Shown piece by piece: positions 3,596-23,719 of a stretch of 33,372 nucleotides of DNA. A model generated the notes under the pieces. That model saw only the letters and a list, made by a program, of their open reading frames with translations. It had not been told where the DNA came from and searched no databases. Position 1 is the stretch's first letter. Each line of letters opens with the position of its first letter. Made by a program: the position numbers and the translations under genes. The stretch comes from a virus, in the IMG/VR virus record IMGVR_UViG_3300031885_000073, positions 1 to 33,372 of that record, one strand, 5' to 3'.

Positions 3596-3625
3596 GTTAT
3601 AAGGTCCGGATTGAATAATAATCAA
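3596..3625 (-). promoter_or_regulatory. Candidate sigma70-type promoter for tail tube gene
   Basis: Minus strand reads TTGATT (3625-3620), an 18-nt spacer, then TATAAC (3601-3596). These match 4/6 and 5/6 of the -35 and -10 consensus. It overlaps the end of the tail terminator gene and lies 115 nt before the tube protein start, in a 140-nt non-coding gap (3482-3621) that holds no open frame. A weak GGGC/GCCC hairpin with a T-rich run (about 3575-3550) also lies here. Prediction by eye only. Confidence 0.35.
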
Positions 3626-4056
3626 CTTGCCCAACTTGGGACCATAACGAATCGAAACCGAAGAACCCCGTGCCTCACGAGACGCGTCGGAACAGAGTCA
3701 TCAATGAAGAGTTCCGACATATCGAGGAAGGCAATGAGAGGGTCAAAGTATCCAGTAACGGGAATGTCCGTGCCGAGGATGGCCTGAACGATATTATTCA
3801 TATATTGTGCAGCTTCCCTATCTCTCTCGGCCGCACTCCAGACATGGACGGTGACGGCATTGTCCTCGGCCTGAGTATCCCGCGTCGTGAACGATATCGA
3901 CCGGACACCGATGGGAGTTCCAAACGAAACATAGGGCATGATCGCACCTTTGGGAACATAATTATAGACGGCATAGGTTGATGTAAGCGAATCGCTTTTG
4001 AGGCGGTCATAGATCGCATTCATCAACGGCAGGAACCCAAGTTTGCGTGTTGCCAT
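3622..4056 (-). CDS. Tail terminator / DUF3168-like tail completion protein
   Basis: A 144-residue protein with the layout of the DUF3168 family: an N-terminal helix with a xxIYDRLK segment, a Val/Pro-rich turn YNYVPKGAIMPYVSFG, a strand pair around AVTVHVWS, and a C-terminal FRFVM strand. Members sit at the top of the siphovirus tail and stop tube polymerisation before head joining. The start at 4056 has AGGAG 7 nt upstream, and that site overlaps the stop of the 860-aa glycan gene, so the two are probably co-transcribed. In ordinary siphoviruses this gene directly follows gp10; here they are separated by about 9.5 kb of glycan genes. Confidence 0.8.
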   Translation of the reverse strand: MATRKLGFLPLMNAIYDRLKSDSLTSTYAVYNYVPKGAIMPYVSFGTPIGVRSISFTTRDTQAEDNAVTVHVWSAAERDREAAQYMNNIVQAILGTDIPVTGYFDPLIAFLDMSELFIDDSVPTRLVRHGVLRFRFVMVPSWAS

Positions 4057-4065
4057 CGTCCGCTC

Positions 4066-6648
4066 CTAAAACTGATTGACGACCGATACCAACTCATGCT
4101 TTTGTAGAAAATATGCCATCGGGGTCGTCCTTCTGTATCGGTTATATTCCGGCGGTGCTTCCGTTATGAGATGGAATGCCTCGGCATCCAGACAAACGGC
4201 TGCCCTCCATGCCGTTTTCTGGAGTTCCAGGAAAAAGTCTATGTGCTCGAACTCGACCTTGATGCGGTTGTCCCACATCACGTCCTTGAACAGTTGATGC
4301 TTGGCAAGGAAGATATTCGGCACCTGGTCGGCCAGGACATACCTGATGCCGTCGGCTGTTGCGTGGACCTCACGCGGCGCGGGTATGCGAGCCAGGAGTT
4401 TTCCCCGCCTTTCAAGCCTTATCCCCTTGGCATAGTTCTCTCCGGCGAAGAAGGCTCCCTTCTCATACCTAAGCGTTGCCGCCACCAATCCGATCTTCTC
4501 ATCCGAATCGAGGACGGCCTTCATATTTCTGATCGATGCGGCATCCTTGATAATCACATCATCGTCGGATATCAGGATGTAACCTTCCTTGGCCAGCTTG
4601 ACAATGGCGTTTCGTCCGAAGGAAATGCCGGAATCGAAAGGAAGAGAAAGGACCACGTGGCCGGCCTGCTTGAGTTTGGCATAGAACAGGGCCTTGCCGT
4701 CATCCTGCGGACCATCGTCGGCTATATAAAACCGATAAGGCAGATCGATTTTTGCGAGTGTCGCTTGATACACTTCAAGCGTCTTGTAAAGCGCCGCATC
4801 GCGCATGAAGGTCTTGATGCCGACGGCAAGTTTATTCTCGCGGAACGTCGGCTTCAACTTTTCGCTATCGAGTATCCGTTGTCGAATCTCGGTTGTCGAG
4901 ACACCCGGCGTGTATGGCAGGAATACGAGCTTCCCGCCATGTTTCCGGACATATATCTCGCCCGGACATTGATCCCAGTCATCGCCGTGGACGAGATAGT
5001 GCGGCTGGATGCTTGCCGCTTCAAGATCGGCCGTCGAATTTCTGTCATTCTGTACGATGGTTTTATCGACACACTTCAGGCCATCGACAATCCGCCGCCT
5101 GGCCTCGAATGGAATGACCGGCTGAGCCTTGTAATCAGAAGCGGCCTTATCGGTCAGGACGCCGACAATAAGTTTCGTCCCGAGTGCCTTGGCCCGTTCC
5201 AGGATTGCCAGATGTCCCTCGTGGAACAGGTCCCAGACGCCGCCGATGAATACGACCTTCTGGCCCCGCTTGAAATAATTGCGATCTACCGCCCGGCAGT
5301 CCATCCAGTATCGATATCCCCGTTGCCTATGTTTCCAGGTCGAACCATAGCGTTCCAGGAGATACCGTTCCGGCGGGTTCGGCAGAAAGCACGGAAGATT
5401 ATGCAACGTGACCGGCTTTAAGTCTTTGAAAAGATGGGCCGAGAAAACGTGTGGAAGGAATTCCCAATCATGGTCCCATCCGCCATCCTTGTTCGGCCCG
5501 AATGCGCCATGCCACCAGAAATCGCCGTCATCGTAAAAGAAGAAAAGATCAATCTTGACGCCGTGCTTCCGGAAACTCAATTCCATCCGCTTTTTGCCGT
5601 GGGTCCATGCGCGGGAAGGCTCGAACCCGGCCGCGATCATGTCGGCCTGGAGCTTGTCCCATCGTGCCAGCTCCTTCGGATGAAGGCCGATATCAATATC
5701 GCCATCATGCGTAATAAAACCTTGCTCTCGTATCGCCCCAAGGCATGTCCCGGCCTCAAGCCACCAGGTGCATTGATTAGCGCTTAAAACATCAATGGCG
5801 AATTTCAGGCAGTCGCCCTTGAGATCGACCACTTTCCCCTCTGCCATCGCCTCATAAGAAAGCGGCGATTCCAGATTATAGTCGCTGTTGACATATTGAA
5901 CCCCCCACTTCTCGCCGAACAGTTTCCACCCCACCGGACGACATCTGTATTTCCTATAATCATCCGTCCCCTCCGGAAGGTGTTGCAATGATACATCGTG
6001 GGTATAGGCGACGCGCCATTTCGTTTTTTGCTGAAGCCCCAGAAAGAAATCCTCGTGTTCCAGCGCCGTCTTGAATTGTTCATCCCACGGATTATCAATC
6101 CAGACCCGGCGACGCATCAGGAAGATATTGAGGATAAGATCGAAACTCATGGTAAACTGAACGCCGGATGCCGTCTTCCGCCATCTCGGAGAATCAACTT
6201 TCTTTATGAAGTGCGTTGTACCTTCGCTGGAAATCTTGCCTTCATAGTGCTGCTCTCGGCCATCCTTGAGGAACATTAGACAGCCGCATAGTCCGGCTGT
6301 CGGTTCATCGTCTAAGACCGCTCGGAGTTTTTCAATTTGCGTCTTGTCGGTGAATGCCGTGTCGTCTTCGATAATCATCAGGTATTCGTATTCCGGCGGG
6401 ATGAGTTTCAGCGTTTCGTTCCGGACACCGGCGACGCCGAGGTCGAACGGAAGCTGGATATGCGTGCACTTGGCGGCCTTCAGGAATTCCGTTTTCTTGT
6501 CGTCCGGATTCCCGTTGTCGCCAACGAAGATCGGGATATCGGGATAAATTTTCCTGATGCTTTCGACGCATCGCATCAAGAGCGCATCCCGCAGAAACGT
6601 CGTTATGATGATTGCGGTTCGGTCAAGTCCCGGCATCGGTTCCATCAT
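4066..6648 (-). CDS. Four-domain GT2–LicD–cytidylyltransferase–GT2 fusion
   Basis: An 860-residue cytoplasmic protein with four catalytic domains. Residues 7-250 are a GT-A glycosyltransferase with an EDD metal motif at 94-96. Residues 275-455 are a LicD/fukutin-type phosphotransferase: EAGTCLGAIREQGF (298-311), HDGDIDIG with D315, D317, D319, IDLFFFY, and a C-terminal ERYLLERYGSTW. Residues 463-590 are a nucleotidyltransferase of the TagD/PntC kind: GVWDLFHEGH with HxGH at 476-479, LVHGDDW (552-558) and GVSTTEI (582-588). Residues 605-860 are a second GT-A domain, DDD at 695-697, clearly related to the first (both have an E-H-x-D-F-F-L-x-L-Q block). The simplest reading is that the middle pair makes a CDP-activated group (glycerol, choline, ethanolamine or aminoethylphosphonate) and transfers it to sugars added by the outer pair. 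Substrates are unknown. It is the last gene of the island; its start overlaps the upstream gene by 26 nt, and ATG at 6636 is an alternative. Confidence 0.85.
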   Translation of the reverse strand: MMEPMPGLDRTAIIITTFLRDALLMRCVESIRKIYPDIPIFVGDNGNPDDKKTEFLKAAKCTHIQLPFDLGVAGVRNETLKLIPPEYEYLMIIEDDTAFTDKTQIEKLRAVLDDEPTAGLCGCLMFLKDGREQHYEGKISSEGTTHFIKKVDSPRWRKTASGVQFTMSFDLILNIFLMRRRVWIDNPWDEQFKTALEHEDFFLGLQQKTKWRVAYTHDVSLQHLPEGTDDYRKYRCRPVGWKLFGEKWGVQYVNSDYNLESPLSYEAMAEGKVVDLKGDCLKFAIDVLSANQCTWWLEAGTCLGAIREQGFITHDGDIDIGLHPKELARWDKLQADMIAAGFEPSRAWTHGKKRMELSFRKHGVKIDLFFFYDDGDFWWHGAFGPNKDGGWDHDWEFLPHVFSAHLFKDLKPVTLHNLPCFLPNPPERYLLERYGSTWKHRQRGYRYWMDCRAVDRNYFKRGQKVVFIGGVWDLFHEGHLAILERAKALGTKLIVGVLTDKAASDYKAQPVIPFEARRRIVDGLKCVDKTIVQNDRNSTADLEAASIQPHYLVHGDDWDQCPGEIYVRKHGGKLVFLPYTPGVSTTEIRQRILDSEKLKPTFRENKLAVGIKTFMRDAALYKTLEVYQATLAKIDLPYRFYIADDGPQDDGKALFYAKLKQAGHVVLSLPFDSGISFGRNAIVKLAKEGYILISDDDVIIKDAASIRNMKAVLDSDEKIGLVAATLRYEKGAFFAGENYAKGIRLERRGKLLARIPAPREVHATADGIRYVLADQVPNIFLAKHQLFKDVMWDNRIKVEFEHIDFFLELQKTAWRAAVCLDAEAFHLITEAPPEYNRYRRTTPMAYFLQKHELVSVVNQF

Positions 6649-7375
6649 TCCCCAATATCTCCCTCACGAAAGGTTGTGCAAAAAGCGATCTTTTATTTTT
6701 AATATGGTCAAACAGTTTATAGCCGTCGAGTTCCATTTTGGGCCGGAGTCCGTTTTCCTGGAACCGCGTCCCGTACCACATGTGGGCGATGGTCGGTTTC
6801 CCGGCTATCCATATCTCGTCGCCGATGAAGTTCTCATACACTTTCGCGCCCTTCTCCAGCCGTTCGACCTTGTATCCGAGGTCAAGTATCTGCCAATAGA
6901 CGAGCTGTGCCGTATCCGTAGAGCGCGGGTCTTTCTCCGGCTGATAAGCAAACGATAAGCCGTGATCACGGATGAACGACCGCTCGAAGAAAAATAGCGG
7001 CGGATGGAGCGGTTTGTGCTCCGGGCCGATACAGCCGACGAGGCGTGTCAACGGATCGGCGTGGTATAGGGCCAGGAGATCATCCTCCCATCCCACCCTC
7101 TGGATATGGGCATCGATATCGAGGACGCAGATATATTGACCGGCGGCCGCCTCAACCGCCTGGTCCATCGCCCGCCCATGCCAGAGATTCTCCTTGTTCT
7201 CAATAAGCCGGATATCCGATTGCCGCCTCAGCCATCCGAGGTTTCGTTCGAGCGAGCCGTTATCGACTATGATAATTTCATACGTTCCCGGCGCCGTAAA
7301 CTTCCGGATACTTTTCACGAGAAGTTCAGCCCATTCCGGCGAATCGACATTGGCGGCGGCAATGGTCAGGTGCAT
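6623..7375 (-). CDS. GT2-family glycosyltransferase (divergent member)
   Basis: A 250-residue GT-A fold glycosyltransferase transferring a sugar from a nucleotide donor. The N-terminus (EIIIVDNGS, 33-41) is the nucleotide-binding strand and turn, HGRAMDQAVEAA (66-77) the following helix, and DID at 86-88 the metal-binding DxD. The C-terminal half differs from the five neighbouring GT2s: it has YKVERLEKG and HMWYGTRFQENG instead of their NPKGY block. The open frame extends upstream to 7615 inside the previous gene, but the ATG at 7375 begins exactly where GT2 homology starts and gives the usual small overlap, so it is preferred. Acceptor and donor cannot be told. Confidence 0.82.
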   Translation of the reverse strand: MHLTIAAANVDSPEWAELLVKSIRKFTAPGTYEIIIVDNGSLERNLGWLRRQSDIRLIENKENLWHGRAMDQAVEAAAGQYICVLDIDAHIQRVGWEDDLLALYHADPLTRLVGCIGPEHKPLHPPLFFFERSFIRDHGLSFAYQPEKDPRSTDTAQLVYWQILDLGYKVERLEKGAKVYENFIGDEIWIAGKPTIAHMWYGTRFQENGLRPKMELDGYKLFDHIKNKRSLFAQPFVREILGNDGTDAGT

Positions 7376-8184
7376 CGAAGCCTTGCCAGTTCTTCCCGGA
7401 TTCGAGTTCCGATCATCCTGCCGTTTTCCGTTTCTGCATTGTCCGGTTCGAGCCACGACTGGGCATGCCCCCAATGCCTGAACGATGACAGCGCCTGCGG
7501 CGTTAGTTCCTGATGGATATATCCTTTCGGATTCCAGTATTTCATCTTGCACCACAGGACGGAGCCGGGATCGAAGATGACCCTCTCGGCATCGAAGTCT
7601 ACCCGGTATTCCCACTGGGTAGCCATAAGATGTTGGAAAATAGAGTTGTCATGGGGCGGATAGAGCGATGCGAAAGCCGTCCTCCAAGGTTCATCGGCAC
7701 GGCGGGCCTCGGTGAGCGACCAATCAACGGCCATCCCGTCCATATATGCGTCCATGTTAAGAAGCCCGAGCCATAGCAGAAATAGTCCGGGGCGATATCC
7801 CCGGCTACAATATCCGACCTTGGGTTTCTCGGTGGAGACGACGAGCACCTTAGGGTCGGAAGCTAGGCCCAAGAGCGCAGATAGCCAGCCGTTGCGTAAA
7901 ACCTGGATATCGTTATCCATGATGACGGCATAATCGGCACGGCACTGGTTAAGCAGTACGTTCAGCGCGGCCCCATGCCCGGCGTGTTTACGGCCCGTGA
8001 TGACCACGTTGACCCGGCCTTGCGCCTGCGCCCGCGTGAGATATTCGAGTTCTCCCGGATTCGGCGAAGCATCGTCGTAAACGATGACCCGATGCGCTTC
8101 CGATGTATGGGCGGCAATGGATTCGATGCAGAGTTCCAGCGCCTCGCGGCCCTTGTAATTAGGGATCAGGATATCGATCGTCAT
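7366..8184 (-). CDS. GT2-family glycosyltransferase, paralog 1
   Basis: A 272-residue GT-A enzyme. It shows ILIPNYKG at the start, IVYDDAS (34-40), GHGAALNVLLN (69-79) and a DND metal motif at 90-92 inside MDNDIQVLRNGWL. The second half carries the block shared by the island's GT2 set: LLNMDAYMDGMAVDW, then FDPGSVLWCKMKYWNPKGY. The start overlaps the previous stop as ATGA. Length and motifs match a complete single-domain enzyme, with no membrane segment, so it works in the cytoplasm on a soluble, protein-bound or lipid-linked acceptor. Confidence 0.88.
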   Translation of the reverse strand: MTIDILIPNYKGREALELCIESIAAHTSEAHRVIVYDDASPNPGELEYLTRAQAQGRVNVVITGRKHAGHGAALNVLLNQCRADYAVIMDNDIQVLRNGWLSALLGLASDPKVLVVSTEKPKVGYCSRGYRPGLFLLWLGLLNMDAYMDGMAVDWSLTEARRADEPWRTAFASLYPPHDNSIFQHLMATQWEYRVDFDAERVIFDPGSVLWCKMKYWNPKGYIHQELTPQALSSFRHWGHAQSWLEPDNAETENGRMIGTRIREELARLRCT

Positions 8185-8900
8185 GCACCCGCCCTAAGTT
8201 TCCGAAGTTCGCTTTGTATGATGGCATAACGCTGTTGCCGGATATCCCAACATGGCCCCGATTGGGGCATTGATAAAACCGAGATGTGACAGTGATGCCG
8301 ATAATAATCCGTTGGTCCGGAAGGGCGAGCCGGCGATAGGCCCGCTGGAAACGGCGCGATGATGCGACCCTGATCCATGATGCGCCTATAGATTTGATGG
8401 CCCGTCGGATACATGCCGGCCTTTGCGTCACCGGGAACCTTTTGCGTATAGCCCCATTCGGCCTTGACGAACGGATACTGAACCATATCAAGCATGAAAA
8501 ACCAGGAGGCGATAGCGACGTTGTCCGGGAAGGTCTCAATATCCGATATCAATGCGGCTCCCGTAGCCTCTTGGTGGGTGACCATCTTCTCGAGCCAACC
8601 GGCGCGGAAGACCTGAATATCGCAGTCCAGGATCATCGCCAGATCGGTCGTCACGGCGTCCAGGAGCCTCGCCACGCCCTTTCCGTGCATGACCCGCTCC
8701 TCCCCCTCGATAAGCCGTATCCATCCCTTATCTTGGGCATCCCGAAGATAGGTCAGGTCATCATAAAGACCGGGATCCGTCGCGTCATCATAGACGATAA
8801 TCTCGTACGGATAAGCGGTAAACTTACGGATCGATTCGATAGCCAACGCGATGGTATCGCCGGATTGATAGTTAGTCATGCAAATGGTAACCGTCTTCAC
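8181..8900 (-). CDS. GT2-family glycosyltransferase, paralog 2
   Basis: A 239-residue GT-A enzyme starting at GTG (8900), which overlaps the previous stop as GTGA. Motifs are IIVYDDAT (34-41), HGKGVARLLDA (72-82) and DCD at 92-94 in LDCDIQVFRAGWLEK. The C-terminal half is shortened compared with its neighbours: the LDMVQY line survives, but the NPKGY block is replaced by a different sequence ending in HCHISVLSMPQS. It is the smallest and most diverged of the group of five, yet the catalytic residues are intact. The acceptor probably differs from that of the other paralogs. Confidence 0.85.
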   Translation of the reverse strand: MKTVTICMTNYQSGDTIALAIESIRKFTAYPYEIIVYDDATDPGLYDDLTYLRDAQDKGWIRLIEGEERVMHGKGVARLLDAVTTDLAMILDCDIQVFRAGWLEKMVTHQEATGAALISDIETFPDNVAIASWFFMLDMVQYPFVKAEWGYTQKVPGDAKAGMYPTGHQIYRRIMDQGRIIAPFPAGLSPARPSGPTDYYRHHCHISVLSMPQSGPCWDIRQQRYAIIQSELRKLRAGA

Positions 8901-9733
8901 GCCTGTCCCCTTATTAATGCAAGTTCCTTGTCTACCAATTCCCGTTCATGCGGAAACAGGGGCCTCAATGATCCATTGTTGAAATGATGGTATTTCAATT
9001 CCATTTCCCGCGGCAGGTTGACGCTCTTGTAGTATTTCGGATTATCGACTTTCAGTTTGGCCCAAAGGGATGAGCCGGGATCGAATGCCACGCCGGTATT
9101 ACAAATCGGGGTATCGCGCTCCCCGGACAAACCCATTGCCAAAAGCGTCTTGAATGGCTCCCGGTCTATAGTCGATGATCCGCCACGCCAATCGACCTCC
9201 ATCCCATCCCGATATGCCGCCATGTTGAGCATCAGGAACGTAGGTCGACACCAACCGGGAACATACAACCCGGATTGTCGCCAACCCGGTTGCCATTCAT
9301 GTGACGCCACGAGTGTTTCATCATCCATGAACGCAATCATTCGAGAAAGCCACGTGCGGTCTTTGATAAAAACATCGCAATCGAGGAGCATTGCATAGTC
9401 CGCCCGACACGTTTCATTTATCAATACATTCACAGCGCAGCCGTGATAATAGGGGGCGGGATGTCCGGGTGCGAAGTTCGCTTTATCCTTTTCCCACCTC
9501 TCACGGGTTGTTGACCGGATGAGTCTTATCCAACCCTTCGCTTCGATCTTCTCCAGATACGCCCTGTCCGTGTGCGGGGCATCCGGGCCGCGATAGCCGA
9601 CCCCCTCCGTCGAATCATCGTGAACGATAATAGAATAATTCGGATAATCCGTTCGGGCGCGAATGCTTTCAATTTCCAGTTCGATGACCGGACCAACATC
9701 GTGATTCGGTATCAGGATTTCGACGGACTTCAT
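8897..9733 (-). CDS. GT2-family glycosyltransferase, paralog 3
   Basis: A 278-residue GT-A enzyme. ILIPNHDVG begins the fold, IIVHDDST (35-42) is the nucleotide-binding strand, YYHGCAVNVLIN (95-106) the following helix, and DCD at 118-120 in LLDCDVFIKDRTWL the metal site. Compared with the other paralogs it has an insert of about 25 residues before the metal site (around 72-98). The second half keeps LNMAAYRDGMEVDWRGG and FDPGSSLWAKLKVDNPKYY, then a HHFNNGS ending. It joins both neighbours by ATGA/GTGA overlaps. Confidence 0.88.
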   Translation of the reverse strand: MKSVEILIPNHDVGPVIELEIESIRARTDYPNYSIIVHDDSTEGVGYRGPDAPHTDRAYLEKIEAKGWIRLIRSTTRERWEKDKANFAPGHPAPYYHGCAVNVLINETCRADYAMLLDCDVFIKDRTWLSRMIAFMDDETLVASHEWQPGWRQSGLYVPGWCRPTFLMLNMAAYRDGMEVDWRGGSSTIDREPFKTLLAMGLSGERDTPICNTGVAFDPGSSLWAKLKVDNPKYYKSVNLPREMELKYHHFNNGSLRPLFPHERELVDKELALIRGQA

Positions 9734-10281
9734 GGATCACAAACCATCAGGCCGATGCCGAAGGGCCATTTGTTAAGAAGATATCCGGAATGGTGATTAT
9801 GGAATGATACGAACAGCCGATTCTCATTCGCGGAATAGTCTGCAATCAACTCCTCCCAAAACTTTCGTATCGACGGGAGAATGGCGACGTCGTGGAACGC
9901 AATAAGTCGGGGCGCGAGCGGGGAGAATAATTCATAATCGCGCTTTACTCCCTCATAGTAATGATCGCCATCGATATAGAGTAAGTCGATTGCTTTTCCG
10001 GCCAACTTTTCCTTTAATCGTTTTACCGTCGTGGGATCATGGCTGTCACCGAGAATGTCGGTTCCCGGCACTTCGGGATTATTGTCTATCCCGATATGTG
10101 TTGCGCCGAGCAGGTTCTCATAGAATGCTTTCTGGGCATTCTTATCCAGGCCGATCTCAACGACCATGGGATGTTCAATCCCCCGGGCGCTGAAATAGGA
10201 TTCACAGAAACAAAGGAACCATCGCCACTCCTTTGCATTCTGGCATGGCATCGCAAGGCCATCAAAAACTTCCTTATCCAT
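9730..10281 (-). CDS. Class I SAM-dependent methyltransferase
   Basis: A 183-residue Rossmann-fold methyltransferase. VVEIGLDKNAQ (40-50) is motif I (glycine-rich SAM loop in modified form), GIDNNPEVPGTD (64-75) the acidic residue that holds the ribose, LLYIDGDHYYEGVKRDYELF (100-119) the motif typical of the Methyltransf_24/CmcI-like group, and IAFHDV (127-132) the following strand. Members methylate sugar hydroxyls or related groups and need a divalent metal bound by the D/H residues. Placed between two glycosyltransferases with overlapping ends, it most likely O-methylates a sugar of the glycan, for instance capping its end. The exact site is unknown. Confidence 0.82.
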   Translation of the reverse strand: MDKEVFDGLAMPCQNAKEWRWFLCFCESYFSARGIEHPMVVEIGLDKNAQKAFYENLLGATHIGIDNNPEVPGTDILGDSHDPTTVKRLKEKLAGKAIDLLYIDGDHYYEGVKRDYELFSPLAPRLIAFHDVAILPSIRKFWEELIADYSANENRLFVSFHNHHSGYLLNKWPFGIGLMVCDP

Positions 10282-11062
10282 GTCTCAGTCCTTTCAGTTG
10301 TTGACGCATGACATCAAGTTTTTTCCGGACATGTGCCGTGATTTCCGGTCGGCCATCGGCGATATGATGGCAAACCTGAAGATAATGATTAAATGAATTA
10401 TTGATATGCCCGGGTAGGGGACTGACTATATAATAACCCTTTGGATTATTGTGTAATACTTTGTCATAAAACTTGCATCCGACATCGAAAGAATAGGTGG
10501 CCATTTTATCAATCGGCAATGAGGCGGCATCGGGTAACGCCATAAACTCCTCTTTGGTACTGACCCATGATCCTGTCCAATCGACCTGCATATCGTCCCG
10601 ATATGCCTGCATATTGAGCAACCCAAACCACCATTCGCAAAACGGGGCTAGGTAAGCACCCCCGCGGCTGGTGCCACCCCGGACCTGAACGCCATGGCAG
10701 CGCACTGCGGCGATGGCGAGCGGATCATCAGCGAGAAGCTCCACGAAATCATCAAGCCAGCCGTCCCGAAGAACCTCAATGTCGCAATCCATGATAACGG
10801 CCAAGTCGGATTCGCACGTAACATTGACCAGTGCATTTAACGCCCCGCCGTGCTCTACCCGCCTCTCTCCCTCGATGAGCCGGAGCCAACCCTGCTCCTG
10901 TTTGCCCCGAAGGTACGGAATGTCAATGCCGTTATCTGAGACATCGTCATAGACAATGAGTTGGTAATCGCCGGGTCGCGTATAGGCATGAACGCTCTCA
11001 ACGCAGAGCTGGGTGGCCTCAAGTGAGTTCCGATTGCTTACGAGAATATCGACCTTCGGCAT
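10274..11062 (-). CDS. GT2-family glycosyltransferase, paralog 4
   Basis: A 262-residue GT-A enzyme with LIVYDDVSD (35-43), HGGALNALVN (71-80) and DCD at 92-94 in MDCDIEVLRDGWLDD. The second half retains LLNMQAYRDDMQVDWTGSW and FDVGCKFYDKVLHNNPKGYY, so it belongs to the same expanded group as its neighbours. It starts as TAATG with the previous stop and overlaps the methyltransferase by 8 nt. The glycosyltransferase assignment is firm; the donor sugar is not predictable. Confidence 0.88.
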   Translation of the reverse strand: MPKVDILVSNRNSLEATQLCVESVHAYTRPGDYQLIVYDDVSDNGIDIPYLRGKQEQGWLRLIEGERRVEHGGALNALVNVTCESDLAVIMDCDIEVLRDGWLDDFVELLADDPLAIAAVRCHGVQVRGGTSRGGAYLAPFCEWWFGLLNMQAYRDDMQVDWTGSWVSTKEEFMALPDAASLPIDKMATYSFDVGCKFYDKVLHNNPKGYYIVSPLPGHINNSFNHYLQVCHHIADGRPEITAHVRKKLDVMRQQLKGLRHG

Positions 11063-11895
11063 TATTCGGCCCTCAAGGCCTTGAGCCGTCGATCAATCTC
11101 GGCCAGTGTTTCGACGACATGGGGATGGTCGGGACGATGGCTATTTCGGTCAAGCCCTCCCCTCCATCGGATCGCCGTATTCCAATAATTATCCGGCAAT
11201 GATAGCATCCCCAGTCCTGCCGGATTATCGAAGTGGAGTTTTTCGTAGAGCGTCCATCCCGTATCCGCGAACACGAGCGGGGGCGTGCGTTCGGGCGTGC
11301 GCGGGGGAGGTTGTCCGGTGAATATCTCGGGCCGCTCGAAGTTCTCGAAGCCCACCTGCTTTAGCTCCCACGTATGGTCTGGGAAGTATCGCCTGTAGAG
11401 CCGCATATCCAAGAGCATGATATTCGGCCAGTAGGTCGGCGTGATGTAATCGTGGTCTCTTGCCCCGCCGGATCGGAATCTGGCGACACCCAGGTCATGC
11501 TCGGGGTCTTTCATAAGGTCTAACAGCACGTCAAGCCAGTCGCCGCGGATGACCTCGGAGTTGGCGTTCAGCAGGAGCGCGTAGCCAGCGGTGGATGCGT
11601 CGCACAGCACCCTCAAGTTTTCTCCGTGCCCATAACGTCGGCCCTGCTCTTTTACCTCGATATAGGCAAACTGCAGGAAGGGCAGACGGGCCAGGTTGCG
11701 GAGATATTCGCGCCGGTTGCCGTCATCTTCCCCGGCCGGCCGCTTGTGCGGTTCGCAGGCAAATCGGTTGTCGGCCAGGCTATTGTCGGCAACGATGACT
11801 CGGTAGTCCTGGCGGACGGTCCGCTTTCCGATGCTCTCGATAGTCAGGCAAATCGAATCCCAGGAAAAGCGCGTCGGGATGAGAATGTCTATCAT
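11062..11895 (-). CDS. GT2-like glycosyltransferase with altered metal motif, paralog 5
   Basis: A 277-residue protein with the GT-A pattern: VIVADNSLADNRF (33-45), RYGHGENLRVLCDA (87-100) and a strand LLLNANSEVIRGDWL (107-121). At the DxD position it has NAN (110-112), where its paralogs have DCD or DND, so metal binding may be lost or shifted. The second half keeps the group's LLDMRLYRRYF and FADTGWTLYEKLHFDNPAG blocks and adds a Pro-rich insert near GQPPPRTPERTPP. It could be a regulatory or structural partner, or use a metal-independent mechanism. ATGA joins it to the acetyltransferase. Confidence 0.8.
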   Translation of the reverse strand: MIDILIPTRFSWDSICLTIESIGKRTVRQDYRVIVADNSLADNRFACEPHKRPAGEDDGNRREYLRNLARLPFLQFAYIEVKEQGRRYGHGENLRVLCDASTAGYALLLNANSEVIRGDWLDVLLDLMKDPEHDLGVARFRSGGARDHDYITPTYWPNIMLLDMRLYRRYFPDHTWELKQVGFENFERPEIFTGQPPPRTPERTPPLVFADTGWTLYEKLHFDNPAGLGMLSLPDNYWNTAIRWRGGLDRNSHRPDHPHVVETLAEIDRRLKALRAE

Positions 11896-12449
11896 GCAAC
11901 CCTTTCTCGGTATTCGTCATCAAGGATGCTCATGGCCAGATAATCCACGAATTGCCCGTTGCGGAAGACAGCCTCGCGGTGCTTCCCTTCGAGCTTGAAC
12001 CCGGCGTTGAAGTAGAGCTTCTTGCCGACCTCATTGGTATCGAGGACAAGGAGCCAGGCACGGTGCATCCCCATGTAATCGAAGCAGTATTTGAGAAGCG
12101 CCTTGTAAATCCGTGTCCCGTAGCCCTGGCCGCGCAATGCCGGGACAACATCAGCCCCGATGCGGACGGAACGATTCGTCCGGTCTATCTCGTCCATGCG
12201 GATGATACCGATGAAGTCGCCCTCGTAGTAGACGGGATAATGCTCATCCTGCTTTTCGGTGAAGACGGCGAAGTATGCCCGCGAAGGGTCGCCGTCCAAG
12301 CGCGAGAACCATGCCGCTTGAGCATCTGCCGAGATGTGGCCGATTGAGGTGAGTTGGCCCCATGTCGAGGGATCGTTCCGGAGGGTCCGGATCACCTCAA
12401 GGTCCTTCTCCTCCACGGGCCGGAATACGATGCCGTTACCTGCGAACAT
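11892..12449 (-). CDS. GNAT-family N-acetyltransferase (RimJ/RimL-like)
   Basis: A 185-residue GNAT enzyme that moves an acetyl group from acetyl-CoA to an amine. The N-terminus GIVFRPVEEKDLEVIRTLRN is typical of the RimJ/RimL class, and VVPALRGQGYGTRIYKALL (101-119) is the CoA-binding motif (Q/R-x2-G-x-G/A). YFNAGFKLEGKHREAVF near the C-terminus is the usual closing strand. Right after a sugar aminotransferase, and overlapping it by 14 nt, the probable acceptor is the amino group that enzyme makes, as in bacterial amino-sugar pathways such as those with PseH-like or WecD-like enzymes. Direct protein acetylation cannot be ruled out. Confidence 0.85.
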   Translation of the reverse strand: MFAGNGIVFRPVEEKDLEVIRTLRNDPSTWGQLTSIGHISADAQAAWFSRLDGDPSRAYFAVFTEKQDEHYPVYYEGDFIGIIRMDEIDRTNRSVRIGADVVPALRGQGYGTRIYKALLKYCFDYMGMHRAWLLVLDTNEVGKKLYFNAGFKLEGKHREAVFRNGQFVDYLAMSILDDEYRERVA

Positions 12450-13569
12450 GATCCCATGCCTCTATCGCGTCCATTATCGTTTCTCTTTCATTCTGGCCGA
12501 TCCACCATCCGACCGGGATACACACCTTGTGCGCATCGAACTCATCTACGCCCGGGAGCGGGCCCCCGCGTGCGCCCGCGAAGCAGGTATGTTTATCGTT
12601 TCGGGCGTGGACTTGCGAAACCTGAACTCCGCACTTTGTCATCCAATCCGTGAAGGATGGTCTATCATCGACCAGGATCGTATAGAGCCAATAGGACGAT
12701 ATCCGATCCGGCTCGTATGCGAGCGGGTGAGCATGACCTATGCCCCGTGCCTCGAATTCCGAGTCATACCAAGCGGCGTTCAGGCGATGCATTGCCAGCG
12801 TTTCGGGAAGCGTCTTTAGGCCCTCGATGCCGATGGTGGCGGCAACGTCGTTCATGTGGAACTTATAACCGAACTCGGCGATGTTATCCTCGCATCGGAA
12901 GTCCGTGCGCGGCGTGTCGCGGTCTATGCCGTACCAGCGGATAAGTCGGCCCCGGCGACAATGGAACCCAGCCGACGCCGCACTCCCGCCGGCCAGCGTC
13001 AAGGCCCCGCCGTCCACCGTAGTCAGGTGCTTAATGGCCTGGAATGAGAAGCAAGTGAAGTCTGAGAGCGAACCCACGCGTGCGCCCTTGTATGAAGCCC
13101 CGATGGCGTGGCAGGCATCCTCAATAAGGTAGATGCCATGAGCCTCGGCTATATCCATGAGCCTATCGAGATCGCATGGATAACCGCCCCAATCGACGCA
13201 GACGATGGCCCGCGTCTTGGGCGTTATCTTGCGTTCCACATCATCCGGGTCGATATTGGCATCGTGCGGATTGATGTCGGCCCAAACTATATCCGCCCCC
13301 CGTTCTAGGATGGGCATGTTCGAGGCCGTGCAGGTCATGGGCGTGCAGATAACCTCGTGCCCGGGTCCGACGCCCGCAAGCCGGGCCGCCAGATGGATTG
13401 CCGATGTGCCGTTATTCGTAGTTAGAACTCGCGGATTCTGGAATTCATCGGCTAGAAGTCGCTCGAAAATATCGACCTTCTGCCCTTGCCCGATGTAACC
13501 CGAATGAAGTACGTCAAGGAGCGGCCCGTCCACATCTGCCGGAATTCTGACTTTGAAAAGTGGGATCAT
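12436..13569 (-). CDS. DegT/DnrJ/EryC1/StrS-family sugar aminotransferase
   Basis: A 377-residue PLP enzyme that puts an amino group on a keto-sugar nucleotide. Visible features are TNNGTSAIHLA (51-61) for the phosphate pocket, LIEDACHAIGA (148-158) with the PLP-pyridine Asp (D151), and FSFQAIKHLTTVDGG with the catalytic lysine K180. The length equals the family norm (about 370). N-terminal SGYIGQGQKVDIFE (23-36) is a conserved substrate-side segment. It starts by an ATGA overlap with the gp10 stop, so it is translated from the structural operon. The dehydratase that makes its keto-sugar is absent from the window, so the host or another locus must supply it. Confidence 0.92.
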   Translation of the reverse strand: MIPLFKVRIPADVDGPLLDVLHSGYIGQGQKVDIFERLLADEFQNPRVLTTNNGTSAIHLAARLAGVGPGHEVICTPMTCTASNMPILERGADIVWADINPHDANIDPDDVERKITPKTRAIVCVDWGGYPCDLDRLMDIAEAHGIYLIEDACHAIGASYKGARVGSLSDFTCFSFQAIKHLTTVDGGALTLAGGSAASAGFHCRRGRLIRWYGIDRDTPRTDFRCEDNIAEFGYKFHMNDVAATIGIEGLKTLPETLAMHRLNAAWYDSEFEARGIGHAHPLAYEPDRISSYWLYTILVDDRPSFTDWMTKCGVQVSQVHARNDKHTCFAGARGGPLPGVDEFDAHKVCIPVGWWIGQNERETIMDAIEAWDHVRR

Positions 13570-14069
13570 ACCTTTTCATCCTTTCCCATGATCTTGCCGA
13601 TCTCCGTGCCGACTTCGCCCTCGTGCCGGAGATAGGCTGTCGTAAGCATCTGGAATCCACCTTGGGGGCGCTCGTTCGATTCATATCGCTTTTCTACGGA
13701 TTCGCTGGGGCCTGGCTTAGGCGCATCGCCCCATGTCCCGAATTCCAGCATATGAATATATTTTACGTTCGATCCGACGACGACCACGAGACCCTTGGGT
13801 CCGGCGGGTTCGCCAACCATGTCCTCAGATTTGGCGGGACCTGAGGCCGGAGCCTTTCTCATGCCTGATCCTGACCAATTCGTCGAAAATGAATTAACGG
13901 CTCGGGCCGATTGAGTCTGAAACCCAGTGTTGCGTTTTACTTCAGCCTCAATCTTGAACCCGATCTTCTTCAACGTATCCGCGCAAGCCTGCCGCTTGAT
14001 GATCTGCCACTTCTTGAGACTCGCCAGCGTCTTCTCGACGCCCTCGACCTTGACGTTTACGGTGCTCAT
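13566..14069 (-). CDS. HK97 gp10-like head-tail / tail component
   Basis: A 167-residue protein with the layout of the HK97-gp10 family: an N-terminal helix (VEGVEKTLASLKKW), a KRNT segment near residue 47, KGLVVVVGSNVKYIHMLEFGT (91-112) with the conserved YxxxxEFGT motif, and the C-terminal helix YLRHEGEVGTEIGKIMG. In related phages it lies between the head-tail joining protein and the tail terminator and is thought to act at the head-tail junction or tail completion. Here the tail terminator is displaced to 4056 by the glycan island. The middle (60-95) is Gly/Ser/Pro-rich. Confidence 0.88.
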   Translation of the reverse strand: MSTVNVKVEGVEKTLASLKKWQIIKRQACADTLKKIGFKIEAEVKRNTGFQTQSARAVNSFSTNWSGSGMRKAPASGPAKSEDMVGEPAGPKGLVVVVGSNVKYIHMLEFGTWGDAPKPGPSESVEKRYESNERPQGGFQMLTTAYLRHEGEVGTEIGKIMGKDEKV

Positions 14070-19388: not shown

Positions 19389-20582
19389 CTAAATACCCTC
19401 GGAGTTCATGCCCTTTGGTAGGCATGGAGTCTTCGGAGACAATCGCGCTTCCATCTCCCCCAAAATCGGGAGCCAGTATTTTTCCCAAACCGCATCCCAA
19501 GAGTAGGCGGCAATAGTTGTCTCGGCATTCTGTTTCATCTGCGTCCAAAGATTAGATCGCCAAGCCACGTGCGCCTTCTCCAATGCCGCCAAGATATTCG
19601 ACGGTCTGGGTTCTAGACGCCAGGTTTCCGTCCCAATCCAAAACTTATCATCTGCATCAACTTCGATCAGCCAGCCCGTCTTACACAGTTCCGGTCCACT
19701 CGTCGTTGCCGTCGTCACGACCGGGATGCCGCACGCCTGGGCCTCGATAAGGGGAAGCCCGAATCCCTCACCCTTCGTTGCCAGGCACATGACATCAAAC
19801 CCGTTATAAATCTCAGCCAGCCAACCGGGGTCGATCCGACCCTGGATGAGCATCGCCTGGTCCGGCCAAAAAACAAGGTCCTTCAAGCCCAAGTGGACAA
19901 CTACCTTATGGTAATTAATCCCCCCCGCTATTGTATCCCGCTCATTCGCTGCCGTATGCAAGAATAGCCGTGCCTCGGGATGATGCTCATGGAAATCCTT
20001 GAATGCCAGCAAAAGCGGGATGAACCCCTTGCGGTCATCGCCATAGTTCAGCCCGACTGATCCGATGACGAAATTCTCATCCGTCAACCCGAGTTCCTTG
20101 CGGAAAGCTATCCGCGCCTCGGGTAACGGCTTGAATACCTTGTCGTCAAATCCGAGCGGCGCGTAAAGGACATCCTTCACCCCGCCCGCCTCCAGTTCGC
20201 GCTTACCGTGAAGCGACATGGCAATCGGCATCCCGACATTCTTAGAGACGCCTGCAAGGGATGCGCTGATCCACTCGGTATCAATGGGGATGGAGGCAAC
20301 CCATTTACCTTTCGGATATTGCCGCTTCTCGTGAATCACCCAGAGGTCCCACATGGTGAAGATGTAATCGAATTTCTCATCTTCAAGCATCTGATTGACG
20401 AATAGCGTATCGACGCCATCGAATATCTCAACGCCGTCGATCTCATACCACTTGTGATCGCCGTGCTTCGTCCCGATGCGGATGAAGTGTCCGAGTGCCC
20501 GGATACGCCGGGTCAATTCCTTTGTACAATTGCCGTAACCTGTCGATGCCAGCGGTGAAACAGAGTGCCATAAAATCCTCAT
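19389..20582 (-). CDS. GT4-family (GT-B fold) glycosyltransferase
   Basis: A 397-residue retaining-type glycosyltransferase of the GT-B fold. Domain 1 (1-165) starts RILWHSVSPLASTGYGN, the glycine-rich acceptor-side loop. Domain 2 (170-350) begins NFVIGSVGLNYGDDRKGF, and GEGFGLPLIEAQACGIPVV (271-289) carries the EX7E motif (E272, E280) that binds the donor. The total length is normal for GT4. AAGGA precedes the start. It lies alone between the capsid-block terminator and the small head genes, 7 kb from the other glycosyltransferases, and may start the glycan on a protein or lipid. Only its domain family, not its substrate, is certain. Confidence 0.9.
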   Translation of the reverse strand: MRILWHSVSPLASTGYGNCTKELTRRIRALGHFIRIGTKHGDHKWYEIDGVEIFDGVDTLFVNQMLEDEKFDYIFTMWDLWVIHEKRQYPKGKWVASIPIDTEWISASLAGVSKNVGMPIAMSLHGKRELEAGGVKDVLYAPLGFDDKVFKPLPEARIAFRKELGLTDENFVIGSVGLNYGDDRKGFIPLLLAFKDFHEHHPEARLFLHTAANERDTIAGGINYHKVVVHLGLKDLVFWPDQAMLIQGRIDPGWLAEIYNGFDVMCLATKGEGFGLPLIEAQACGIPVVTTATTSGPELCKTGWLIEVDADDKFWIGTETWRLEPRPSNILAALEKAHVAWRSNLWTQMKQNAETTIAAYSWDAVWEKYWLPILGEMEARLSPKTPCLPKGMNSEGI

Positions 20583-21126: not shown

Positions 21127-22152
21127 CTAGCTGGACGTGGTCAAGATGACGAAGGCCGAGACCGTCTCGCCTCCGAGTCTTGGCATGACGGGAGCATCCA
21201 TTATAGGTTGTCCATCTACACGCAATACCACTCGCCAGAATGTCTCATCCGTAAGAAAACCATAGCTGCCGGGGACTTCCCGAGACGCGGAAATCTCAAG
21301 TGAACGGTTCGCTATGACATAGTGTGAAAAGTCGGCCAGGATGATGTCCCCAGCCGTACCGGCTGCCGAACACTTCTCCGTCGGGATGATATCGCATCCC
21401 ATACAAGTCATGGCCGACAAATCGATGATTCCATAAGCATTCGACCCAGCCGTCGCATCATTCGCCCAGTTCGCAAGAACCGTAGGATTGATAAGCCAAA
21501 CGGCTCGCTTCCAAGAATCAGGAAGTAATCGTCCTGCCATCTGTGCGATGTCGGCCGGGACCGGCGTTCCGGGCCAAGCCGTGCGTGGGTGTTGAATGGT
21601 TGCCGGGGCGTTCATAATACCGAGCGGCTGGTTGCCACCCGCACCCCAAACGTAAAAATAGTCTTCCTCAAACGCCAGTGCTTGTCCGAAAGAGACCTGC
21701 ATGAAGTTTCCGAAGTTGGTATAGTCGGCCATGAGTTCATTCGACGCAAACATACTGCCGACGAGCTTATGCGCCGTGAGTTCGAGTTCGCCGAGGGTTG
21801 GCTTGGATATGACGAGCGATTTATCGCCGCCCTCATATTTCCAGGTGAACGTGATCCCGCCGAAGTAGGAGGAGACCCGGGACGATTCCACGAGTCTCCG
21901 AATTTTCAAAGAATCGCTGGACATTTGAAGCACTTTCGCCCGCGGTCGGACGATGCTGTTCTCAAGGGCAATGTTGTAAATCCCCGCCGCCCATTCCTCG
22001 GGGCAAAGGAAGCCCCCTTGAGCATCAACGCCGATTTCCATGTGCCCCGTTGTCTTTAGCCGGGCATCCAGAATACCCTCGACACCAGCCGAGCGGACAC
22101 GTGACAGAAACTCCCCAAAGCACTTAAACCCGCCCTTTGGATCTTTTTCCAT
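21127..22152 (-). CDS. HK97-fold major capsid protein paralog 2 (no delta domain)
   Basis: A 341-residue HK97-fold capsid protein, paralogous to the gene just upstream. It starts with a short KDPKGGFKCFGEFL segment, then KTTGHMEIGVDAQGGFLCPEE, RPRAKVLQMSSDSLKIRRLV, KPTLGELELTAHKL, and AAGTAGDIILADFSHY near the C-terminus; every block has a counterpart in paralog 1. It lacks the 50-residue N-terminal helical region that acts as scaffold in this family. Start: an in-frame TTG at 22158 is possible, but ATG at 22152 has AGAG at good spacing, 16 nt after the previous stop. Whether it co-assembles as a minor capsomer or replaces paralog 1 is not known. Confidence 0.85.
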   Translation of the reverse strand: MEKDPKGGFKCFGEFLSRVRSAGVEGILDARLKTTGHMEIGVDAQGGFLCPEEWAAGIYNIALENSIVRPRAKVLQMSSDSLKIRRLVESSRVSSYFGGITFTWKYEGGDKSLVISKPTLGELELTAHKLVGSMFASNELMADYTNFGNFMQVSFGQALAFEEDYFYVWGAGGNQPLGIMNAPATIQHPRTAWPGTPVPADIAQMAGRLLPDSWKRAVWLINPTVLANWANDATAGSNAYGIIDLSAMTCMGCDIIPTEKCSAAGTAGDIILADFSHYVIANRSLEISASREVPGSYGFLTDETFWRVVLRVDGQPIMDAPVMPRLGGETVSAFVILTTSS

Positions 22153-22168
22153 TTTCAATCTCTATTGG

Positions 22169-23395
22169 TTAGGCCGAGGTGGCTGCGGACAATTGCACGA
22201 ACGGCGAGAACGTATGAGCACCCCGCCGCGAGGTGATGGTTGTCTGCGGCCAGCATTGGCCGGCAACCCTGAGAACGAAGCGCCAGCAGGTTTCGTCAGT
22301 GGTGAATGCGACATGTGTGGAACTGTCAATCGTGATGGCCTGGCGGTCGCCGATGAGGTAGTACCGGAAGTCGGCGAAGAGAATATCGCCCGCCGTGCCG
22401 AGCGCCTGCAGCTTTTCGCTGATGATGACGGGCCGCCCCAGGATGGTCCAAGCGCCGATGCTATCCTTGAAATTGGGTTGCCAGATCAGGATCTTGCCGC
22501 TGGCATCGGCTGCATTTCCGCTACCGAGTTCGAGCAGTTCGGCCATAACCGTAGGGCCGATAACCCAAACAGCATTGCCGAGTGAAGCGGGGAGCATGGA
22601 CTGGTACATCTCGGCAATATCTTCAGCATGCACCCGGTTGGCCGTGTTGCGAAGGACGCTCTTCAGGCAACCGCAGTTGAAAACGCCTTGGGGTTGACCC
22701 CCACCGCCACCAAAAAGAAAGGCGTCATCTTCATAGTATCCCCAAGCCGAACCGAATTGACGTAGGATGAGAGGTTCAAGAGCGACGGCGCTGTCGGCCA
22801 GGAGTTCATTCGAGGTATAAGTGAGTCCGGCGAGTTTGTGCGGGGTGAGTTCGAGTTGTCCGAAGGTGGGTTTGGAAGCGGTCTTTTCTTTTGCTTCGCC
22901 CGTCCAATAGGCGACAATGCCACCGAAAACGGTACTAGCGTGCGAGGTGTCGTTAACGAAGGGGATTTTCAGCGAGTCGGTGGCCATGGGGATAATGGTC
23001 GCCCGGGGCCTTACAACGGCACCCTCAAGAGCGATCTCCTGGAGGTCCATTCGGTACTCTTCGGGGACAAGGAATCCGCCCTGGCTGTCTTCCCCGATTT
23101 CCATGTGGCCCGTAGTTTTGCTGATAGTGCCGGGCATAAAGGACAGCCGTGGATCGATAGTGCGATTGATGCGAACGTCACGTGCGGCAATGAGAAATTC
23201 TCCGAAGGATTTGAATTTTTCCTTTGATGGTGCTTCAAGGATCACTTCGCCCGCCGGCTTGAGTTGATCCTTGAGTTTATTTGTGGCATCGGCCAGCTGT
23301 TCCTTGAGCTGGTCCTTAACGTATGCATCTGCCACGTCCTTCAGGACAGAGTTAGCTTTGTCCTTTAGGTATGCATCTACTTCTTCTTTAGTCAT
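22169..23395 (-). CDS. HK97-fold major capsid protein paralog 1
   Basis: A 408-residue major capsid protein. The N-terminal 50 residues (TKEEVDAYLKDKANSVLKDV and on) form a charged helix like the delta domain that scaffolds assembly and is then cut off by the prohead protease. The body has KTTGHMEIGEDSQGGFLVPE, RPRATIIPMATDSLKIPFV, KPTFGQLELTPHKLAG, TSNELLADS and LGTAGDILFADFRYYLIGDR. The open frame extends 39 codons upstream to 23512, but ATG at 23395 has CGGAG 9 nt upstream and the extra residues look random, so 23395 is chosen. It follows the protease and tRNA, as expected for a head operon. Confidence 0.93.
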   Translation of the reverse strand: MTKEEVDAYLKDKANSVLKDVADAYVKDQLKEQLADATNKLKDQLKPAGEVILEAPSKEKFKSFGEFLIAARDVRINRTIDPRLSFMPGTISKTTGHMEIGEDSQGGFLVPEEYRMDLQEIALEGAVVRPRATIIPMATDSLKIPFVNDTSHASTVFGGIVAYWTGEAKEKTASKPTFGQLELTPHKLAGLTYTSNELLADSAVALEPLILRQFGSAWGYYEDDAFLFGGGGGQPQGVFNCGCLKSVLRNTANRVHAEDIAEMYQSMLPASLGNAVWVIGPTVMAELLELGSGNAADASGKILIWQPNFKDSIGAWTILGRPVIISEKLQALGTAGDILFADFRYYLIGDRQAITIDSSTHVAFTTDETCWRFVLRVAGQCWPQTTITSRRGAHTFSPFVQLSAATSA

Positions 23396-23648
23396 AGTTT
23401 TACACTCCGTATGTGTTTTTGGAAAAATGTTTATTAAGATGCCATCGCATGCCCGTCGTCCGGCTATCATCTCCGCGCCCGGCCTTACCCCACTAATGGC
23501 CCGTAAATCCATTTCCGTAGGGTAGTTTGGACGCTGATGATTCCGCCGTTCTTAGAGATGCGGCGACATCGGCCTGTTGTCAGAATGGTATCTGAGCAGA
23601 AGCCCGCCCGTGTGCGTGACGTGGGCGAACGTATGGTCAGATATGGAA

Positions 23649-23719
23649 TAGCAGGGGCCAGAGTCGAACTGGCGTATCGAGGGTATGGGCCTCGTGACTG
23701 GCCGCTAGTCTACCCTGCG
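23649..23719 (-). tRNA. tRNA with CAU anticodon (Met-type), initiator-like
   Basis: A 71-nt cloverleaf on the minus strand: acceptor CGCAGGG pairs with CCCTGCT except C1 against U72; T8 A9; D-stem GACT/AGTC with 7-nt loop; anticodon stem CGAGG/CCTCG with loop CCCATAC (anticodon CAU); 4-nt variable region; T-stem GCCAG/CTGGC with loop TTCGACT. Discriminator is A73; CCA is not encoded. The 1-72 mismatch and the A11:U24 pair are initiator hallmarks in bacteria, but the three G:C pairs at the anticodon stem end are incomplete (A29:U41). C33 replaces the almost universal U33, and position 21 is C rather than A. It lies 7 nt after the protease stop. Confidence 0.75.

Follow-up and report, generated by a model that had tools for sequence, protein, structure and literature searches.

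Could a single phage polypeptide both activate a phosphate-bearing group and build it into a glycan, and if so, on what acceptor? This question is raised by a gene at positions 4066-6648 (minus strand) of IMG/VR virus record IMGVR_UViG_3300031885_000073, whose 33,372 nucleotides (nt; positions 1 to 33,372) are analysed here as a whole and referred to as the window. A preliminary description, made from the sequence, had proposed that the gene product contains two glycosyltransferase (GT) domains flanking a LicD domain and a HxGH-type cytidylyltransferase (CT), each with an intact active site. The open reading frame encodes 860 amino acids (aa), starts with ATG and has AGGGAG just before the start. 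Pfam profiles matched the product with two stretches of PF00535, LicD PF04991 and PF01467, all above their cut-offs, and the motif residues proved exact: EDD at 94-96, D315/D317/D319, HEGH at 476-479, GDDW at 555-558 and DDD at 695-697. The protein and its parts, in the order GTa-LicD-CT-GTb, are as follows.

4066..6648, minus strand: the 860-aa GTa-LicD-CT-GTb protein, defined by open reading frame, Pfam, selection and structure prediction
5863..6648, minus strand: GTa, a GT2 domain, residues 1-262, by PF00535 and by B4GALNT1 in phmmer and Foldseek
6361-6369, minus strand: EDD motif of GTa
5284..5862, minus strand: LicD phosphotransferase domain, residues 263-455, by PF04991 and by FKRP in sequence and fold
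5692-5706, minus strand: LicD motif DGDID
4873..5265, minus strand: HxGH cytidylyltransferase domain, residues 462-592, by PF01467 and by the Fom1 CyTase in sequence and fold
5212-5223, minus strand: CT motif HEGH
4975-4986, minus strand: CT motif GDDW
4069..4836, minus strand: GTb, the second GT2 domain, residues 605-860, by the second PF00535 stretch, 33% identical to GTa
4558-4566, minus strand: DDD motif of GTb

The best PF00535 stretch spanned residues 13-151 (7.8e-19), and both GT copies combine a GT-A fold with a DxD-type motif according to Pfam and structure prediction; human B4GALNT1 was matched by GTa residues 13-122 in phmmer and by a GT domain in Foldseek (3.5e-17). The LicD profile matched residues 290-332 (1.7e-11; 45.1 bits against a gathering cut-off of 22.6), and the LicD part matched FKRP in phmmer as well as in Foldseek (1.5e-17), while PF01467 covered residues 468-591 with the HEGH present (2.5e-16; 60.5 against 21 bits). 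An AlphaFold2 model of the 860-aa protein, computed from a 24-sequence alignment, had a mean predicted local distance difference test score (pLDDT) of 90 and a predicted template modelling score (pTM) of 0.62, and its folds support the four domains, with no broken active site in the window protein. Moreover, the ratios of nonsynonymous to synonymous substitution rates (dN/dS) against the nine closest relatives were about 0.04-0.21 per domain, a sign of purifying selection on each of the four. The four-domain observation is thus far beyond chance.

Relatives were collected from IMG/VR, first with the window protein as query and later with its more distant relatives, and a broad family emerged, seen here only in uncultured phage contigs. 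The complete GTa-LicD-CT-GTb order in one frame with all sites intact was found in 13 distinct sequences, the window included, with per-domain identities to the window of 43-95%; several further sequences are cut off at contig ends, and the CT sites are also intact in L086 and L090. Two members, L003 and L067, carry an extra N-terminal GT, which is a GT2 in L003, and are therefore five-domain proteins of 1116 and 1112 aa, respectively. In seven other distinct relatives, some with an N-terminal GT2, GTa is joined directly to GTb, which bears out the earlier proposal that a GT duplication flanks the LicD-CT core. GTa and GTb of the window are 33% identical over 250 aa (E 2e-34) and neither resembles any of the six further GT2 proteins encoded in the same gene island. 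Across the core-bearing and core-less types, GTa-GTa and GTb-GTb matches are better than GTa-GTb matches, indicating that GTa and GTb had already duplicated before the core was gained or lost; whether it was a gain or a loss is not decided by the GTb tree, which does not resolve the groups. Compared with the window, L054 is 71% identical in GTb and just 37% in LicD, a mosaic that suggests exchange of modules. No relative has a CT or a LicD domain without at least a remnant of the other, and CT and LicD, judged from these sequences, travel together.

The DxDxD is kept in every family sequence that covers the LicD motif, including three relatives (L053, L058 and L059), to which a broken CT site is confined and which lack both HxGH and GDDW. 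Loss of the CT site with retention of LicD is what would be expected if the CT merely supplies the donor, and the donor in those phages must then come from elsewhere. L053 has the complete domain order and clusters with L058 in the GTb tree (99/95). The dead CT is still constrained between L053 and L059 (dN/dS 0.16), and an alignment-guided model of L053 keeps its alternating strand-helix fold, so that the dead domain may have given up catalysis and been retained as a scaffold. In L059 (1375-2073) GTb is out of frame with GTa-LicD-CT, through either a frameshift or an assembly error.

Where the gene lies bears on the acceptor. The four-domain gene is the last of an island of overlapping genes, bordered on both sides by structural genes that hold the same position in related contigs.

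3622..4056, minus strand: gp17-like tail completion gene (PF11367), the fixed downstream border of the island
6623..7375, minus strand: GT2-1, a glycosyltransferase gene that shares 26 nt with the four-domain gene
7366..13569, minus strand: rest of the island, namely GT2-2 to GT2-6, a methyltransferase, a PseH-like GNAT protein and a PseC-like DegT aminotransferase, all overlapping
13566..14069, minus strand: HK97 gp10-like gene (PF04883), the fixed upstream border of the island

The DegT aminotransferase and the GNAT protein are nearest to PseC and PseH, respectively, both below the cut-offs. As in the window, the slot is flanked by the gp10-like and gp17-like genes in the long related contigs G007, G014, G018, G023, G028 and G031, and it holds the core-less form in G014 and G028. 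G018 and G023 have exact terminal repeats of 81 and 114 bp, by which their genomes look complete, and their islands comprise, besides small open reading frames, the four-domain protein and one GT2 only; a GT2 related to GT2-1 stays beside the four-domain gene in such minimal islands. These two apparently complete genomes speak for the earlier claim that the machine would be self-contained.

Four further observations concern the surrounding genomes. A GT4-type glycosyltransferase gene lies near the capsid genes of the window (19389-20582) and recurs in G014 and G028 as well as in two copies in G031, and was not seen by blastp in G018 and G023. Two adjacent HK97-type capsid genes (21127-22158 and 22169-23512), 41% mutually identical, are kept as a pair in related contigs, and a tRNA-Met(cat) gene (23649-23719) lies between the capsid and protease genes. 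G018 encodes a TROVE/Ro60 protein with a von Willebrand factor A domain (L073:7400-8911) together with an RlaP-type RNA-repair nucleotidyltransferase (L073:14124-14936).

In the known logic of such enzymes, a cytidylyltransferase makes a group linked to cytidine diphosphate or monophosphate (CDP or CMP), and a LicD-type enzyme then passes on the phospho-group, with a sugar or polyol as acceptor. We consider it somewhat better than an even chance that the window protein is a soluble multi-enzyme builder of this kind, which would make a CDP or CMP donor, move the phospho-group by LicD and add sugars, probably on a virion protein. With cytidine triphosphate, the CT would activate a small host molecule that bears a phosphate or phosphonate, and LicD would move the phospho-group from the CT product onto a hydroxyl of a sugar. 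GTa and GTb, as GT2-type enzymes of GT-A fold, would add the surrounding sugars, and GT2-1 could contribute one more sugar step, perhaps the initial one. The fusion of CT and LicD with two GTs suggests as product a short glycan that bears a phospho-group internally or at its end. The acceptor would most likely be a virion protein that the phage synthesises concurrently, since the genes are located within the head-tail operon and the island proteins have neither membrane segments nor a flippase.

The same enzymology could instead place the glycan on the host surface, lipid-linked or in lipopolysaccharide or capsule, and thereby change a receptor to block superinfection. The usual task of LicD and TagD-type enzymes is the synthesis of surface polymers, and the nearest cellular CT found (Bacteroides finegoldii, 50% identity) lies inside a surface-glycan cluster, beside a TagF-like transferase and an aminotransferase that resembles AepZ below cut-off, with no PEP (phosphoenolpyruvate) mutase annotated near it. 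However, no membrane-like segment was detected in any island protein, neither a flippase nor a polyprenyl transferase was found among them, and the genes stand among late virion genes; GT2-2 weakly matches the GtrB-like phrog_841, and the island holds no membrane protein corresponding to GtrA or GtrC of Gtr-type serotype conversion. A host-surface glycan is therefore considered unlikely.

As to the donor of the proposed virion-glycan builder, the CT could make CMP-2-aminoethylphosphonate or CMP-hydroxyethylphosphonate, from which LicD would make a phosphonoglycan, a sub-case of the same mechanism with another donor. The Fom1 CyTase (PDB 5x3d) ranked first in phmmer (E 5e-21), followed by ethanolamine-phosphate CT (ECT) and TagD, and is the nearest solved structure, with 42% identity, the motifs LTD-YK, HGDDW and PYTPG in common, and a Foldseek template modelling score (TM) of 0.86 at 2.0 A. 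Nevertheless, TagD, with a TM of 0.84, and HldE-type enzymes follow closely, no more than 6 identity points behind (36%); the best NCBIfam model is heptose-phosphate adenylyltransferase (HldE/RfaE domain II, TIGR02199; 95.2 against 181.5 bits, below cut-off), and the equivalog cut-off of the TagD model TIGR01518 was not reached either (68.1 against 165.4 bits). A PEP mutase was found in none of 31 distinct related records, most of them fragments and apparently complete ones included, in a search to which control genomes were positive, so that a phosphonate substrate, if used, would come from the host. The hint of phosphonate activation in the preliminary description thus stands as far as the Fom1 resemblance goes and is weakened by this absence, and a phosphonate donor is, in our estimate, quite improbable. 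Of the cytidylyltransferases TagD, LicC and PntC named there, only TagD is of the right family: TagD, ECT and the Fom1 CyTase belong to PF01467, as the window CT does, whereas LicC and PntC belong to the MobA-like NTP (nucleoside triphosphate) transferase family PF12804 (PMC6697681), for which Pfam gave no match in the window protein.

A role of the glycans in modifying phage DNA, and not protein, is very improbable: a core-less relative weakly matches the TET-associated glycosyltransferase PF20691, below cut-off, but no thymidylate synthase or hydroxymethylase homologue was found in seven records (control positive), known LicD cases act on sugars or polyols, and no Tet/JBP match was obtained, which counts little since the control also gave none. 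A decaying relic with partly broken domains, to which the dead CT of three relatives might point, is scarcely credible, given that the window protein and 12 further complete sequences have all four sites intact and that constraint acts on every domain among the close relatives of the window.

Several points weigh against a virion-glycan builder. PF04991 aligns at model positions 3-45 only, although the predicted FKRP-like fold supports the LicD part beyond the stretch aligned by Pfam. The pTM leaves the mutual placement of the four domains uncertain, so channelling between them is not demonstrated by the model, and the CT-domain tree has no well-supported branch from which the substrate could be read. 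The analysis shows the domains, their intact motifs, selection, fold, the position of the gene and its partner gene, whereas catalysis, the order of reactions and the identities of donor and acceptor are inferences, and the acceptor, likeliest a virion protein, has gene position and solubility as its only two grounds. No isolated phage or host is known for the family, and the terminase, capsid and helicase matches are distant and scattered over many hosts. The wider proposal, that the fusion and one GT2 form a two-gene kit which would make its own CDP or CMP donor and build a phospho- or phosphono-glycan on virion proteins, a hitherto undescribed virion modification, with the CT turned into a non-catalytic scaffold in one lineage, is advanced tentatively, as somewhat less than an even chance.

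A single polypeptide that activates the donor, transfers the phospho-group and carries out two sugar transfers would be a compact phospho-glycan enzyme, its location in a phage structural operon would point to an easily missed kind of particle modification, and the core-less and dead-CT relatives offer a natural comparison set for the coupling of activation to transfer. The four-domain order is common among uncultured phages, but no annotated record of GT-LicD-CT-GT was found, nor any description of it in the open-access literature. Neither 72,556 plasmid records nor 50,697 phage records yielded a LicD-CT fusion, and no cellular relative was found in scans seeded by exact peptides, which reach close relatives only and by which cellular occurrences may have been missed. 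Nearest to the fusion in the plasmid and phage records are adjacent CT and LicD genes beside flagellin in Octadecabacter: an Octadecabacter arcticus plasmid (L069:7096-10702) encodes flagellin, then a TagD-like CT, a LicD protein and a Stf0 sulfotransferase, possibly a cellular parallel with phospho-modified flagellin.

Among known systems, TagD/TarD has the same HxGH fold, a GDDW-type motif and 30-36% identity to the window CT, which differs in scoring below the TIGR01518 cut-off and in having PYT in place of RTEG before the final motif. PEP mutase fusions with PF01467 or PF12804 are documented (PMC6697681), and Fom1 is a CT fused to PEP mutase that serves an antibiotic intermediate, unlike the window family, in which PEP mutase was not found. 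FKRP, reported to transfer ribitol phosphate in a paper cited in PMC11666461, is likewise a LicD-type transferase (PDB 6kaj; Foldseek alignment of about 490 columns), but is human, places its domains differently (root-mean-square deviation about 15 A) and is without a CT or a second GT domain. In Actinobacillus, the LicD-family CpsC builds a glycerol-phosphate polymer from a CDP-polyol donor supplied by a cytidylyltransferase, whereas its CDP-glycerol synthase is separate, no GT domains are fused to it and it serves a bacterial capsule linker (PMC11666461). Capsid-protein glycans of mycobacteriophages Che8 and Rita have been linked to phage glycosyltransferases, as cited in PMC11256854, which in the part available to us mentions neither LicD nor CT. 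Bcs3, the Hib capsule polymerase, serves a bacterial capsule, and no cytidylyltransferase domain is named in the accessible portion of its description; it nevertheless includes ribitol-phosphate transferase and ribosyltransferase activities in one polypeptide (PMC10299916), and thus, as in the window protein, several enzymes are joined into one assembly machine.
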